Below the pieces are notes generated by a model. That model saw nothing but the letters and a program-made list of their open reading frames with translations. It did not search any database and was not told the DNA's origin. The translations under genes and the position numbers were made by a program. A DNA stretch of 29,530 nucleotides from a virus: the IMG/VR virus record IMGVR_UViG_3300030104_005660, positions 1 through 29,530 of that record; one strand, 5' to 3'. Shown piece by piece: positions 1,340 through 7,966 of the stretch (positions within the stretch are counted from its first letter, which is position 1; each line of letters starts with the position of its first letter).

Positions 1340-1806
1340 TATTCAACCACGCTCCTACGGTTTAGGGCAGCAATGATGATCTCTTCAGGCAATTCGCTGA
1401 CGTGTTCAATGATCTGCGCACGCCCTTCTTTCGTGTTGGGATCCACCAACTGTTCGCTTTCTGGAATCACTTCTGGCTCGATTGGTTCGCGCCTATAGCC
1501 GTGCCGCCTTTCAAGCATCCAGGCTGCTGCAGTCCAGGTCCCTTCCTGTGCCGCCTTCTTTATTGTCGCCAACGCGTGCGCTGCACTTTGAGCTTCCGCC
1601 CTTTTAATGTCCTGCAAAAGCTGCAGTTTTTCGTTGTCGCCATCGCGGGCCTGTTCCAGCCAATAATAAAACGTGCGTTCCGAAATGCCTGCATATTGAG
1701 CCGCCAGCTTATTGCTGAGACCTAAGCGGATTCCTTCGATCAAACGCTGTTTTACCTCTGGCGTCATTTTAGCCATCAAGCGCACCGCTGCCTGGGTCCT
1801 GTCCAT
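1339..1806 (-). CDS. terS: Terminase small subunit
   Basis: Up to 155 residues, the expected size for a DNA-recognition subunit of the packaging motor. The N-terminal third reads as a helix-turn-helix: EGIRLGLSNKLAAQYAGISE followed by RTFYYWLEQARDG, the usual TerS 'resting, step, recognition helix, W' pattern. A helical middle (LLQDIKRAEAQSAAHAL) and TWTAAAWMLERRH are typical of the family. Two starts are possible: ATG at 1806 (AAGG only three bases upstream) or ATG at 1776, 30 bases in. Either way the start overlaps the end of the upstream methyltransferase gene. The call rests on the helix-turn-helix and on lying just before terL. Confidence 0.88.
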   Translation of the reverse strand: MDRTQAAVRLMAKMTPEVKQRLIEGIRLGLSNKLAAQYAGISERTFYYWLEQARDGDNEKLQLLQDIKRAEAQSAAHALATIKKAAQEGTWTAAAWMLERRHGYRREPIEPEVIPESEQLVDPNTKEGRAQIIEHVSELPEEIIIAALNRRSVVE

Positions 1807-3049
1807 TTGCCTTAGCCCATCGTGTCCACCGTCTTCGAATCACGTCACAATAGTGCGGATCCAATTCAATGCAGCGTGCAACGCGGTGCGTCTTTGCGCA
1901 GGCCATTAGAGTCGAGCCAGATCCCGCAAAGGGTTCGCCCACCAACCATCCAGGCACTGAGCTGTTTTCTATCATCGGCGCGATCAACTCCACAGGCTTC
2001 ATCGTGGGGTGCTCTTTTGAAGATCCTGGGCGCTTGCACTCTTGCACGGTGTCTACAGTACGCGGCACTGGATTCAACCGTGCAGCCCCGTCAAACCAGC
2101 CGTGAAAGATTGGTTCGTGTCGATAGTGATAATCTCCGCGGCCCATAACAAATCGATCTTTGACCCAGACTAATGTTCTGCGCCAATTGAAGTCTTCCAA
2201 GACCTGACCAAGGCGCCAGAAGATAGGACCTGCGGGCGCAGAAGCATACCAGGCTGCGCCAGGTTCACTATGTTTCACCAGCTCGGTGAACGTCGCGTGC
2301 CACAGATCCGCTGTTTCTTCTGGGCTCATCGAATCGTTCGATACCATCAAACCATCGGTTCGCCTATTCAGGCGCTTGGCTTCTTCGATGTCTTTCACTG
2401 CGTTGACTGAGACACCATAGGGCGGATCTGTCCACACGCACTTCAGCTTTTCGCCTTGCATCAGGGCTTCCCAGACATCTGGATCTGTCGAATCGCCGCA
2501 GATCAAACGATGTGGTCCCAGCTCGAAGATCTCACCAGGCTGCGACACGGGTTGTTCCCCGGCCTCTAAACCAGGCACGTCGAATTCGTCTTCGTCTAAA
2601 TCGAACGGCTCATCTGCCATGATGGTGGCCAGCTCATCTGCCGTCCATCCGATTCCAGAAACGTCCACGTCTTCTGCCTCTAATTCAACCAGGACCTTTC
2701 GCAGCAGATCGTCATTCCAGTCAGCTATTTCGCCAACTTTATTATCGGCCAAGGCCAGCAGCTTCGCATCGGCTGGATCCAGATCCATGTAGCGTACCGG
2801 CACACGATCCAGTCCCAGCTTTTCGGCAGCCAGAAACCTTGTGTGGCCCGCGATAATTTCGCCATTCTTTCGAGCGATAATGGGCGAAGCAAACCCGAAG
2901 CGCCTGATTGAATTCGCGACGTCTTCCACCGCGTGTTCGTTATCGCGCGGGTTTTCTGACCAAGGCGACAGCTCGGTGCGATTGACCCAGACTGCTGCAG
3001 CTTCGCTCTTTGACTTTGAGTGTTTCCCTGTTTGTTCCTGCTTTTTCAT
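1769..3049 (-). CDS. ParB-domain / adenine- or cytosine-N4 DNA methyltransferase fusion
   Basis: A 426-residue, two-domain protein. Residues about 20-110 are a ParB/sulfiredoxin-like domain, with GEIIAGHTRFLAA (63-75) as the hallmark. Residues about 175-420 are an amino-methyltransferase: GDST (185-188), the catalytic DPPY (208-211), HEPIFHGW (311-318), HPTMKP (347-352) and the SAM-binding motif PFAGSGS (373-379). DPPY precedes FAGSGS, the beta-class order. Such fusions are common next to phage terminase genes and methylate N6-adenine or N4-cytosine. Likely roles are protection from host restriction or marking of packaging substrate; that part is inference. The target sequence cannot be read from the protein. 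Confidence 0.93.
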   Translation of the reverse strand: MKKQEQTGKHSKSKSEAAAVWVNRTELSPWSENPRDNEHAVEDVANSIRRFGFASPIIARKNGEIIAGHTRFLAAEKLGLDRVPVRYMDLDPADAKLLALADNKVGEIADWNDDLLRKVLVELEAEDVDVSGIGWTADELATIMADEPFDLDEDEFDVPGLEAGEQPVSQPGEIFELGPHRLICGDSTDPDVWEALMQGEKLKCVWTDPPYGVSVNAVKDIEEAKRLNRRTDGLMVSNDSMSPEETADLWHATFTELVKHSEPGAAWYASAPAGPIFWRLGQVLEDFNWRRTLVWVKDRFVMGRGDYHYRHEPIFHGWFDGAARLNPVPRTVDTVQECKRPGSSKEHPTMKPVELIAPMIENSSVPGWLVGEPFAGSGSTLMACAKTHRVARCIELDPHYCDVIRRRWTRWAKANGQDPGSGALDG

Positions 3050-3138: not shown

Positions 3139-4107
3139 TCATTCGGTGCCGCTGTCGCACAATCCCCAACTGAGACATCCCGGTTCGCGTTCGTCTTCTC
3201 GAAAGAAGTTGTACTGCTTTCCACCGCGCGATGTCTTTGACCAGTCCACAACTTTATCAATAGGCGGCATTGTGAAGCCGTATCCAAGACCAGCAAAGAA
3301 AGTGGGTGGCCTAAGTTTCTTTTTCATCTCGCCACCTTCATCGATAATTTTCTGGTGTCGAGCTGCGGCAATTTTCTGAACGGCTTCTTCCAGCTCTCGA
3401 ATCAAATCTACTCTTTTAGAATCCGTTTCAGCCATATAGCGCACTTCTGATTTTCGACTGAAGATGCAGGGCCAACATCCCACGCGCTTTGCCCCTTGCA
3501 GGTATAGCTTGCACGGTCGAAGACCGTGACGGTGGTGGATGTCGATCACGTCTTGGACTGTCCAACGAATCAATGGGCGCCAGACCATGCAATCCATCGA
3601 AGTGCTAATTTCACGCTCGGGCAACTTGCTGCGGGCTTCGCTCTCATCAGCTCGAATGCCAACGACGTTCACTGGGCGCTCGAAATCGTTCGACTTCATA
3701 AACGCTTTGATCGTTTTCATTTTCAGGTTCTGGGTACACCAGCGATGGATGCGAGAAGGAAACATCCCCTTGTAAATTATCCACCGCAGCATCCCCGATG
3801 GCGAATGGCCCAGGAGGTCTTCAAAGTAAACCGCTAAGGCTTCTTGCTCTTCGTCCAAATCAGGCAATGGCGGTGTCAGAAACTCAATTTCTCCGATGGC
3901 TTCAGGAAGCTCATCTTTCAGGTACGAATACAAAACGGGGTGCTCCCAGCCTGTATCGAAGAACACTCTTCGGTGTTCGATGCCCTGCTCTTTGAGAAAG
4001 AGCGACATGGCTGCGGAGTCTTTGCCGCCTGAAATGCTTGCAAAATATTCAGGCTTTGTATCGCCTAACAATTCTCTCTTCTTCGCTTCTCTTTCTTCGG
4101 CTGTCAT
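3139..4107 (-). CDS. PAPS reductase-like PP-loop protein
   Basis: A 322-residue member of the adenosine-phosphosulfate / PAPS reductase and DndC-like superfamily. The nucleotide-binding PP-loop is SGGKDS (26-31). Other family marks are FDTGWEHP (50-57), RWCTQNLKMK (122-131) and VGIRADES (149-156). Cysteines at 199, 211, 214 (GCWPC), 311 and 317 could bind an iron-sulfur cluster, as in DndC. Homologs are frequent in phages; reported ideas are sulfur metabolism or phosphorothioate DNA modification, neither settled. The ATG at 4107 follows GGAGGG at a normal distance. The gene lies between an initiator-like gene and a DNA methyltransferase, which favours a DNA role, but this is inference. Confidence 0.85.
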   Translation of the reverse strand: MTAEEREAKKRELLGDTKPEYFASISGGKDSAAMSLFLKEQGIEHRRVFFDTGWEHPVLYSYLKDELPEAIGEIEFLTPPLPDLDEEQEALAVYFEDLLGHSPSGMLRWIIYKGMFPSRIHRWCTQNLKMKTIKAFMKSNDFERPVNVVGIRADESEARSKLPEREISTSMDCMVWRPLIRWTVQDVIDIHHRHGLRPCKLYLQGAKRVGCWPCIFSRKSEVRYMAETDSKRVDLIRELEEAVQKIAAARHQKIIDEGGEMKKKLRPPTFFAGLGYGFTMPPIDKVVDWSKTSRGGKQYNFFREDEREPGCLSWGLCDSGTE

Positions 4108-4802
4108 CAGGTCCCTCCTATGATTTGCCGCGCTGCTATCTGAACCGCTTCTTCGTATTTCTGGTCTGTGAATTGATCTCGGATTTCCACCAGCATTTCC
4201 TCTGCCTGTTTCACCGCTTCATCCCACTCTATATCCATTCGGGGTTTCTTCCACGGGTCGTGCCCGTTCGTCTTCTTAGTCGAGACTTCAGGCTTTATGC
4301 GATCAAATCCAGATCCATTCTTTTTCTTAAAAGAAGTGTATTTGTTTTTGTATTTGTAAGAGGAATTAACGCGCGATCGTCCGGCATCTGTCTGGTTGCT
4401 GTCCGTTTGCTGTCTGGCAGCTGTCCGTTTTAGCCTGCTAAGTCGCTGTTTTCTTTTGGGTTTGGTGGCTGGTTGCTGTCCGTTTCGTGTCTGGCCACTG
4501 TCTGGTTGCTGGCTGGTTTCGTGCGGTTTGCCCCGGCCGTCTTCTTGAGCTGGATCCCCGAAATCTTCGCCTTCGATCCAGCCGTTATAGATCGCCACCA
4601 CCTTTTCGCGCATTATGCGAGCACGCCACCGCGACCAGCCTGTGTAATTGGCCAGGTCCCGAATCGATACGTTCACGCCGCTATGCGTAAGGTTCCAACA
4701 CCATAAATAAGCCACTGCTTCTGGCGCTTGGTTTTCCTTCGTCCATCTGGTCTTGACCAGCGCCGCTGCGAATTCCGCAGGCACCGGATGCCACTGCTTC
4801 AT
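4107..4802 (-). CDS. Replication-initiator-like protein carrying a probable origin
   Basis: A 231-residue protein starting at ATG 4802-4800 behind GAGGG; an in-frame ATG at 4832 has a poor ribosome site. Residues about 1-85 look like a winged-helix DNA-binding domain of the phage O-protein kind, with VSIRDLANYTGWSRWRARIM as a recognisable helix-turn-helix. A polar linker rich in Q, T, S and R follows, then a short helical C-terminus. The linker DNA holds an 11-bp repeat array and an AT-rich tract (see separate entry), as the lambda O gene holds its origin. Family assignment is from the pattern only, so 'helix-turn-helix replication protein' is the safe call. Its stop overlaps the next gene's start. 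Confidence 0.68.
   Translation of the reverse strand: MKQWHPVPAEFAAALVKTRWTKENQAPEAVAYLWCWNLTHSGVNVSIRDLANYTGWSRWRARIMREKVVAIYNGWIEGEDFGDPAQEDGRGKPHETSQQPDSGQTRNGQQPATKPKRKQRLSRLKRTAARQQTDSNQTDAGRSRVNSSYKYKNKYTSFKKKNGSGFDRIKPEVSTKKTNGHDPWKKPRMDIEWDEAVKQAEEMLVEIRDQFTDQKYEEAVQIAARQIIGGT
4318..4369. other. AT-rich tract beside the repeats (possible DNA unwinding element)
   Basis: This 52-base stretch is roughly three quarters A+T by eye, in a genome near 50 percent GC. It lies 18 bases from the 11-bp repeats, inside the same gene, and encodes a lysine- and tyrosine-rich run. Iterons followed by an AT-rich segment inside the initiator gene is the lambda-type origin layout. The role is inferred from position and composition only. 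Confidence 0.5.
4388..4530. repeat. 11-bp phased repeats inside the initiator gene (iteron-like)
   Basis: Thirteen consecutive 11-bp steps can be laid from 4388 to 4530. Units 1-4 are CTGTCTGGTTG, CTGTCCGTTTG, CTGTCTGGCAG and CTGTCCGTTTT. Three degenerate steps (4432-4464) keep the phase. Then come GTGGCTGGTTG, CTGTCCGTTTC, GTGTCTGGCCA, CTGTCTGGTTG, CTGGCTGGTTT and CGTGCGGTTTG. The consensus is about CTGTCYGKTTG on the plus strand. Eleven is not a multiple of three, so each unit is read in a different frame and the peptide does not repeat. That points to selection on the DNA itself. GCTGTCCGTTT occurs exactly at 4398, 4420 and 4475. Confidence 0.75.
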
Positions 4803-4832
4803 TATTCCCTCGCTATTTATTCCCCATCGCAA

Positions 4833-4916
4833 TCCCGCTGGGAGCTACCCAGCGGGTGACCCGCGAAAGGTCGTGCGTTTGGGAATTGCTAACCCCGTTT
4901 ATGGGGTACTAAACAC
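4833..4916 (-). promoter_or_regulatory. Structured leader of the initiator gene with competing hairpins
   Basis: An 84-base gap between rusA and the initiator gene. It holds a perfect 9-bp inverted repeat, CCCGCTGGG (4834-4842) and CCCAGCGGG (4848-4856), with a 5-base loop. On the transcript, GCGGG just upstream could instead pair with the first CCCGC of this stem, so the two folds exclude each other. A second hairpin, ACCCC/GGGGT, lies near 4892-4907. No U-run follows either stem, so these are not standard terminators. Control of initiator translation, or RNA processing, is possible. Confidence 0.45.
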
Positions 4917-5366
4917 TTAGGGCAATGTGAGCAGAAGATCAACTGATCCCCTATCCCCAGGCTGTGCCCAACGCTTGTGGGCGATCAGGTCCACCACGAT
5001 ATTGTCATCTGCCAGGACGCCCGCCAAGACCAGCGAATCCAGGATGCACTTCGCGATGTTGTCTATGTCTGGTTTTCTGTCGCACAGCTCGATTCCAATC
5101 TTCGCCTTGGTGCACATCGCCTTTGGGCGTTTTCGATAAGCCCAGAATTCGATTTTCACGGGCTCGGTGATCGCGGGCCTTCGCCAGTGGGCTTTCAAAA
5201 CCAAAGAAGCGCTGCGCTCCCATTGGGCCGTCTTTGGTGGTGTGTAGGCTTTCGGAAATCCACCGCGCATTGCCACGCGGGGTCTGCCTTTACCAATCGG
5301 CTCTAATGGAATGACGCAGCGCCATTCTTTCTCTCTTTCCCTAAAGCAGTCTAATTTCGTTTTCAC
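4917..5366 (-). CDS. rusA: RusA-family Holliday junction resolvase
   Basis: A 149-residue endonuclease that cuts Holliday junctions and other branched DNA before packaging. The family marks are PIGKGRPR (23-30), the metal-binding KPDIDNIAKCILDSL (98-112) and GVLADDNIV (116-124), with the aspartates at 99, 101, 120 and 121. The start is GTG at 5366, overlapping the end of the upstream gene by 26 bases; the nearby AAGG is close to the start, so the true start could be slightly different. The length fits RusA (about 120-150). It works with the ERF-like and SSB proteins encoded elsewhere in this genome. Confidence 0.9.
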   Translation of the reverse strand: MKTKLDCFREREKEWRCVIPLEPIGKGRPRVAMRGGFPKAYTPPKTAQWERSASLVLKAHWRRPAITEPVKIEFWAYRKRPKAMCTKAKIGIELCDRKPDIDNIAKCILDSLVLAGVLADDNIVVDLIAHKRWAQPGDRGSVDLLLTLP

Positions 5367-7265: not shown

Positions 7266-7966
7266 TGGCTTTAGATCAGGCACTATCGAAAGCACAATTG
7301 GCGGCTAAACAATTAGGAAAGGACAACAGAAACGATTTCCACAGATACAATTACGCCAGCGCAGAACAGAAGATTATGACGGGGCGGCTGCTCGCTGCGC
7401 ACGGCATTGCTTTTGTCCCGGTATCTTGCACCACATTCGAATGCGCTGGTAAGCCTTGGCTTCGCAGGCAGGTAAAACTGATCTTCGAAGATGGCGCCTC
7501 GGAATTGGCAGAAGTGGATTGGCCCATCGTAGTCGAAAAGGGGCGCCCTTTGGACAAGGCCACCGCCGCTGCCCATACGGCATCCCTTGGATATTTGCTG
7601 CGCGACATTCTTCTTCTGCCTGTAGTCGAAAGAGGACAGGAATTAGATGATCCAGTGCGGGACGAATTGAACCCCGAATATACAGGAAATGTTGCGGCGC
7701 CGAGCAAAGCCGAGCCGCCGAAAAAATCCAAAGAATCCAAAGAATCCAAAGAGGAAAAGATTCAGCGGGAATGGAAGGAAGACTACCACGCCTTTGTCGA
7801 GAAACTTGGGCCCCACGTCCAAGAAGAAGAAGGGGAATCCAAATTCGAAGCAATCTGCGTGATTGCAAAGGAAATGGGCTTTTCACGACCGTCAGAAATT
7901 GGAAGGGAAGAACGGCAGGCGTTCGTCAAAGCGATGCTTTCAGAAGTCGCAGGAGGCTTAGAATGA
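7265..7966 (+). CDS. erf: ERF-family single-strand annealing protein
   Basis: A 233-residue protein. Residues about 1-130 resemble the ERF recombinase domain: KDNRNDFHRYNYASAEQKI, then LLAAHGIAFVPV and KATAAAHTASLGYLLRDILLLP, the family's conserved 'Y.Y....', 'L...G.' and 'R..L...L' segments. A polar hinge with three 9-bp tandem copies (AATCCAAAG, 7725-7751) encodes repeated SKE, and a helical C-terminal domain follows. ERF proteins form rings and anneal complementary strands for phage recombination and circularisation. The ATG overlaps the previous stop by one base. SSB and RusA in the same genome are the expected partners. Confidence 0.78.
   Translation: MALDQALSKAQLAAKQLGKDNRNDFHRYNYASAEQKIMTGRLLAAHGIAFVPVSCTTFECAGKPWLRRQVKLIFEDGASELAEVDWPIVVEKGRPLDKATAAAHTASLGYLLRDILLLPVVERGQELDDPVRDELNPEYTGNVAAPSKAEPPKKSKESKESKEEKIQREWKEDYHAFVEKLGPHVQEEEGESKFEAICVIAKEMGFSRPSEIGREERQAFVKAMLSEVAGGLE

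Follow-up and report, generated by a model that had tools for sequence, protein, structure and literature searches.

Positions 4318–4516 of a viral genome in IMG/VR (record IMGVR_UViG_3300030104_005660) very likely form a phage replication origin, which lies in the linker-coding part of the gene for its own initiator and would be bound by the product of that gene. The window analyzed here is the whole stretch of 29,530 nucleotides, positions 1 to 29,530 of the record. The gene at 4110–4802 very probably encodes a replication-starting protein, P0001. It contains an array of 11-bp units, and since the pattern in the DNA persists among relatives even as the encoded residues change, this array is very likely the place where copying of the genome starts.

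Layout of the array, its flanking elements and P0001

Ten 11-bp units were located in the minus-strand gene, laid out as five units, three degenerate steps and five units (Table 1). Read along the gene, the unit is an 8-bp core, M-C-R-GACAG, plus 3 free bp. The core carries 0–1 mismatches in eight units and 2 mismatches in two units, and a further step beyond the distal cluster (4517–4527) has 4 mismatches. The consensus core MCRGACAG forms direct units with no dyad symmetry. The array lies in mid-gene, ~285 bp from the start codon, and 44 bp separate the last core of the distal cluster from the first of the proximal one. The lag-11 identity over 144 bp was 0.53, the best value elsewhere in the window being 0.39, and none of 20,000 first-order Markov shuffles reached the value of the array (maximum 0.50). 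The initial annotation had described thirteen 11-bp steps at 4388–4530. This periodicity was borne out, as were the degenerate steps in phase and ten as the number of units, while the extent was not, as it omitted the unit at 4374–4384 beside the AT-rich tract. The tandem-repeat finder TRF, suggested as a check, recovered the array independently with periods of 11 and 22.

Table 1. Features of the putative origin and its surroundings, with window coordinates
Feature	Position	Strand	Basis or remark
RusA Holliday-junction resolvase gene	4917–5366	−	Upstream of the initiator gene
Initiator gene (P0001, 231 aa)	4110–4802	−	Translation; stop codon at 4107–4109
P0001 layout: N-terminal helical HTH domain, long disordered linker, short C-terminal helix			AlphaFold prediction
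N-terminal HTH domain, presumed iteron reader	4569–4802	−	Alignments; conserved W..P, NPAP, GWS-W-K/R-A
Distal cluster, five units: CCAGCCAGCAA, CCAGACAGTGG, CCAGACACGAA, ACGGACAGCAA, CCAGCCACCAA	4462–4516	−	
Three degenerate in-phase steps between the clusters	4429–4461	−	
Central element GACTTAGCAGG	4434–4444	−	14 bp before the first proximal core
Proximal cluster, five units: ACGGACAGCTG, CCAGACAGCAA, ACGGACAGCAA, CCAGACAGATG, CCGGACGATCG	4374–4428	−	Last unit abuts the CG run
CGCGCG run	4370–4375	−	Directly after the last unit
AT-rich tract, presumed unwinding element	4318–4369	−	78.8% AT
TTACAAATACAAAAACAAATACA, TAC spaced by multiples of 6 bp	4337–4359	−	

Further elements accompany the units. 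The AT-rich tract, already recognized beside the array in the initial annotation, is present and has the highest AT content of all 52-bp windows in the 29.5-kb record. In homologs, TAC hexamer tracts occur in other reading frames, and an A/C-rich tract follows the C/G run. An alternating or near-alternating C/G run was detected at the same place in all 18 aligned homologs. The central element has a family consensus of approximately ACTTACG and occurs in all three codon phases. Its information content was 6.99 bits, against 3.23 ± 0.81 bits in codon redraws (maximum of 2000, 6.04), in a test over seven lineages in which the anchor was set by the iterons only and the core registers were also set by eye; L031, L006, and L015 were left out because their anchor had been chosen with the element in view. 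The central element, the CG run, and the 44-bp gap are additions to the first description of this region.

In the AlphaFold model of P0001, helices span residues 9–17, 28–40, 47–54, and 58–77, with confidence from approximately residue 20. Residues 79–180 mostly have pLDDT values <50, corresponding to a linker predicted to be disordered, and the C-terminal helix (188–228) is of low confidence. No match to P0001 was found in Pfam, PHROGs, or NCBIfam. Specifically, Pfam indicated no RepA_N domain (PF06970), PHROGs gave no direct match to the DnaD-like loader profile (PHROG 2514), and none of the three databases showed similarity to lambda O or the PHROG O-like proteins. P0001 also has no AAA+ domain. 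No match was detected among 50,697 named phage records, and tblastn searches of named phages with P0001, L003, L022, L036, and L018 as queries returned no match to the proteins themselves. The HTH of P0001 showed a weak profile resemblance to the N-terminal domain of DnaD-like phage proteins (hhalign probability 71%, pairwise E 3.7e-5, 30 columns). Fold searches against the PDB yielded no significant match. A BFVD search gave two, both to unnamed viral proteins, and its weaker matches carry HTH, DnaD-like, and replication-initiator names.

The region around the gene was also surveyed. Genes of the Erf-like, Gam-like, and SSB types are present at a greater distance in the window, and the window ORFs that were checked included neither a helicase nor a loader. 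The gene before the initiator is RusA in the window and, it seems, a RusA-like frame in L003 and L006. A PAPS-reductase-family gene (3139–4107) follows the initiator, and a similar-looking frame lies close downstream in L006 (5012–5950). At 1769–3049, a ParB-N domain is fused with a DNA methyltransferase domain, adjoining the terminase small-subunit gene (1339–1806) on the same strand. The Erf-like gene contains a tandem 9-bp repeat, AAAGAATCC, at 7721–7752 (3.6 copies); as its period is a multiple of three, it is a coding repeat.

Relatives of P0001 and constraint on the DNA

Iterative scans of IMG/VR, together with one of GTDB genomes, identified 17 relatives of P0001, with identities of 97% (L001), 42% (L022), and 14–31% (the others). 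L022 is a contig in a Phycisphaerae MAG, and no second carrier was found among 198 genomes of that class. The N-terminal domain (W.P.P, N.AP, G, W) is common to nearly all 17 relatives, and all 17 have a variable linker with the C/G run at the same place. The distant homologs (15–42% identity) carry different 11-bp motifs at the same place in the gene: ACCGTACA in L022, ACCGGACA in L020, ACCAGCCA in L018, ATCGGGCA in L003, and TGGGACA in L036. The inter-cluster distance of 43–44 bp recurs in L022, L018, L028, L036, L003/L002/L011, L006, and L020 (43 bp in L020), while the cluster size ranges from 1 to 5 units. The 11-bp phase, for which a comparison of homologs had been proposed, is kept while the motif and the codons change, though it is absent in some lineages: L014/L015/L034/L039 and L006 showed no lag-11 signal (weak 10/10/11 spacing or few units). 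In the IMG/VR lineage of L014, L015, L034, and L039, the spacings are 10, 10, and 11 bp instead of a strict 11 bp, suggesting that conservation acts on the single helical turn and not on a length of 11 bp.

The C-terminal parts of the relatives differ in extent. The L022 protein has an extra, confidently predicted helical C-terminal domain (residues 154–242, AlphaFold), most of which is missing from the window and L001 proteins; a tblastn search of the window and the L001 record detected no separate copy of it. The window (4107–4350) and L001 initiators stop ~100 aa before L022, the closest longer relative. In L006 (4001–4654), the initiator frame enters unrelated low-complexity sequence after the CG run and overlaps the next gene (4458–5051); this initiator looks frameshifted or truncated, or its C-terminal part lost. 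A small Cys-containing protein is encoded after the initiator in L003 (5768–6286) and L006 (4458–5051), a gene absent from that place in the window. The L006 copy had no family match, and this protein is a candidate loader or partner.

To separate DNA-level from coding constraint, codons were redrawn from the usage of each gene, with the protein kept unchanged. In the window, the observed periodicity exceeded the redraws at lag 11 (z 3.7) and lag 22 (z 4.9). The combined Stouffer z over 12 lineages was 8.1 at lag 11, 5.5 at lag 22, 5.1 at lag 34, and 5.0 at lag 44, and ≤1.8 at all other lags. Five of the 12 lineages were weak or null alone (L019, L031, L015, L006, and L030 [p 0.048]), so the 11-bp rule is strong, but not universal.

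The substitutions point in the same direction. Between the window and L001, the silent:replacement ratio was 2:6 in the array, CG run, and tract, and 20:3 outside (Fisher p 0.0026), where 11 silent changes and no replacement fell in the N-terminal domain, and 9 silent changes and 3 replacements in the C-terminal part. For L003 and L002, the ratio was 2:11 inside versus 53:10 outside (p 3.5e-6). Substitutions in the window-L001 array mostly change amino acids, whereas those elsewhere are mostly silent. All seven in the array fall at 11-mer positions 8, 9, or 10, which make up the 3-bp spacer; by simple arithmetic, the chance of this is (3/11)^7, or ~1e-4. The proximal array of L003/L002/L011 likewise varies only at phases 0 and 7–10. 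Conservation at the DNA level leaves the spacer free. With a lag-11 signal beyond protein-preserving redraws and substitutions that avoid the cores, these comparisons uphold the earlier proposal that DNA, not protein, is what is conserved in the array.

Arrays found from the motif and in named phages

We scanned the 2.9 million viral contigs of IMG/VR for three window-type cores at an 11-bp period, using no protein information. The scan returned 22 contigs, L001's own and 21 others; we estimate from the information content of the core that well under one would be a chance match, presuming an assumed collection size of some tens of billions of bases. The array lies in the linker region of an initiator-type gene in 13 of the 22 contigs, L001's included. 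In the other twelve (L048, L051, L056, L059, L060, L063, L064, and L066–L070), the product of the open frame begins with an HTH-like domain. PHROG matches were obtained for nine of ten proteins tested, and these were to a DnaD-like helicase loader, a replication initiation protein, or O-like proteins. A CG run after the array is also present in L060/L069 and L064. In nine of the 22 contigs (L049, L050, L052, L054, L055, L057, L061, L062, and L065), the array is outside recognizable initiator genes, in short or other frames or at contig ends; L065 has core copies in both orientations. BLASTN with an idealized iteron array as query gave no match, probably through masking by the low-complexity filter.

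Named phages carrying relatives of the scan-found DnaD-like proteins were also tested. Mid-gene 11-bp arrays were detected in Staphylococcus phages HSA84 (z 4.4) and PVL (3.3), Klebsiella phage Chronis (4.2), Lactobacillus phage Lrm1 (3.4), Pantoea phage PA-1 (3.1), and Bacillus phage 000TH010 (2.4). Little or no such signal was obtained for Anoxybacillus A403, Shewanella 3/49, Vibrio 1.206, and Listeria A118 (none in A118). The Chronis array consists of 3 units, 44 bp, and 3 units, and the gap in PA-1 measures 44 or 55 bp according to how one degenerate unit is treated. In several named phages with such genes, the next gene encodes a helicase or loader. The initial annotation had considered the one-turn, 11-bp spacing unusual; its presence in the DnaD-like and O-like genes of these phages indicates that it is common. 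We found no description of 11-bp iterons in phage initiator genes in the open-licence literature.

Known systems, a possible mechanism and other explanations

Lambda O is composed of an N-terminal DNA-binding domain, a linker, and a C-terminal part. In lambda, iterons in the middle of the initiator gene are followed by an AT-rich tract that opens (PMC7466680, PMC5043065), and O dimers bind to the iterons, each an inverted repeat of 19 bp (PMC5043065). The window also has iterons and an AT-rich tract inside the initiator gene. A lambda-style origin, as originally proposed, fits all comparative tests run, and the motif-only scan leads to initiator genes. The likeness is partial, however: the units of the window are direct, 11 bp long, and lack dyad symmetry, they form two clusters separated by ~44 bp, and they are accompanied by a central element and a CG run. 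P0001 has no sequence match to the Pfam or PHROG O families.

The DnaD-like and O-like initiators (PHROG 2514, 186, 270, and 678), exemplified by phages Chronis, PA-1, HSA84, and Lrm1, resemble the window in their mid-gene 11-bp arrays followed by AT-rich DNA, and several IMG/VR members have the same MCRGACAG core. Their N-terminal domains, however, are longer and end in a conserved NY..Y motif, their C-terminal domains differ, few of them have a CG run, and the window protein itself matches none of these families. In the RepA_N protein Rep of pSK41, an N-terminal winged HTH binds four Rep boxes central within rep, the ori-encoded residues form a dispensable linker, and the C-terminal domain binds DnaG (PMC5703833). 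The window shares the central position of the sites in the initiator's own gene, the linker-coding DNA, and the N-terminal HTH (here predicted), but its protein has no sequence match to this family. An analogy only may be drawn with the basal unwinding system (BUS; DnaA-boxes, GC-rich gap, DnaA-trios) of bacterial oriC, in which double-strand sites, a GC-rich spacer, and a short-period A-containing tract follow in the same order (PMC8287927); the window has no DnaA box near 4.3–4.5 kb, its tract consists of TAC hexamers instead of GAT trios, and P0001 is not an AAA+ protein. The region is best read as an intragenic iteron origin of the lambda O/RepA_N functional kind, with membership in neither family; it departs from lambda O both in protein sequence and in the form of the iterons. 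The initiator family is represented in none of the databases searched, and its 11-bp units are combined with some fixed parts that are new.

Drawing on lambda and pSK41 RepA_N for binding, stoichiometry, and opening, we infer the following steps. The N-terminal HTH would bind as a monomer to each 8-bp core, once per helical turn, which would align the bound protomers on one face of the DNA. They may form two blocks approximately four turns apart, in a nucleoprotein assembly that ends at the CG run and could drive opening of the adjacent AT-rich tract. The C-terminal part might recruit host or phage helicase-loading factors, although P0001 is missing most of its relatives' helical C-terminal domain, which makes this step less certain. 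That loss counts against the origin reading, as do the lack of a helicase or loader among the ORFs checked, the lack of a GC-skew turn at 4.4 kb, the lack of a match between P0001 and any curated initiator family or a significant one in the PDB, and the nine scan contigs with arrays outside initiator-type genes.

That the region represents an undescribed class of origin is a bolder reading, to which we give somewhat less than even weight. Such a class would combine a one-turn array (10–11 bp; 8-bp core, free 3-bp spacer), a fixed 44-bp split, the ACTTACG-like element, the CG run, and the TAC tract. Its compact HTH would read an iteron code, MCRGACAG, common to otherwise unrelated DnaD-like and O-like initiators, and the protomers may assemble into an unbroken filament leading into a phage equivalent of the unwinding module of bacteria.

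General origin signatures were also surveyed. The cumulative GC skew has no turn at 4.4 kb, where the initial annotation had set one as a test, though skew follows gene direction here and is thereby confounded as an origin marker; a local turn occurs near 5.8–6.0 kb. We rejected GC skew as a marker on both grounds. DnaA boxes were not found near 4.3–4.5 kb and are fewer in the window than expected by chance, and an Rfam search gave no match.

Among other explanations, an autoregulatory operator, at which an HTH protein other than an initiator controls transcription, by repression or modulation, through binding to repeats within its own gene, is improbable. A predicted HTH protein with repeats in its own gene would suit it, and an initiator may also autoregulate, but the array lies ~285 bp into the gene, directly beside the tract with the highest AT content in the record. 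Moreover, the motif-only matches are PHROG replication initiators and DnaD-like loaders, and such genes adjoin helicase genes in named phages.

A partition centromere of the parC type, bound by an adaptor, is less probable still. The unit of R1 parC is 11 bp long, and the site lies outside the parR gene and requires an actin-like motor. It contains two sets of five short direct repeats and acts with the ParM motor (PMC4949242). The window shares the 5 + gap + 5 layout, but its array is within a replication gene, the window proteins scanned (a subset of the ORFs) included no ParM, TubZ, or ParA, cluster sizes vary among the relatives, and the genes with such arrays are replication genes according to PHROG.

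The two remaining explanations have a very slight probability each. A low-complexity (Q/T/D-rich) coding linker, with DNA periodicity arising by chance or repeat slippage, agrees with the predicted disorder and with the ability of slippage to create tandem repeats; it is already disfavored by the codon redraws, which fail to reproduce lag 11, by a substitution pattern opposite to coding constraint, and by the phase kept in relatives with different motifs. A site for another phage or host protein (e.g., packaging or nucleoid-associated) merely located in the gene gains from P0001 being the ligand by inference, but lineages that differ in the iteron motif differ in the N-terminal domain as well, and arrays occur in initiator genes of otherwise unrelated phages.

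An origin bound by its own initiator would have several consequences. Pfam, PHROGs, and NCBIfam all lack the P0001 family, yet the DNA by itself suffices to read its likely origin. Should the iteron rule hold, origins and initiator genes in uncharacterized phages could be found with a simple DNA pattern. The central element, CG run, and TAC tract offer defined targets for mutation. Because the arrays found in nature have 1 to 5 units per block, changing motifs, and a ~44-bp gap, they allow a direct test of how helical phasing contributes to origin opening.
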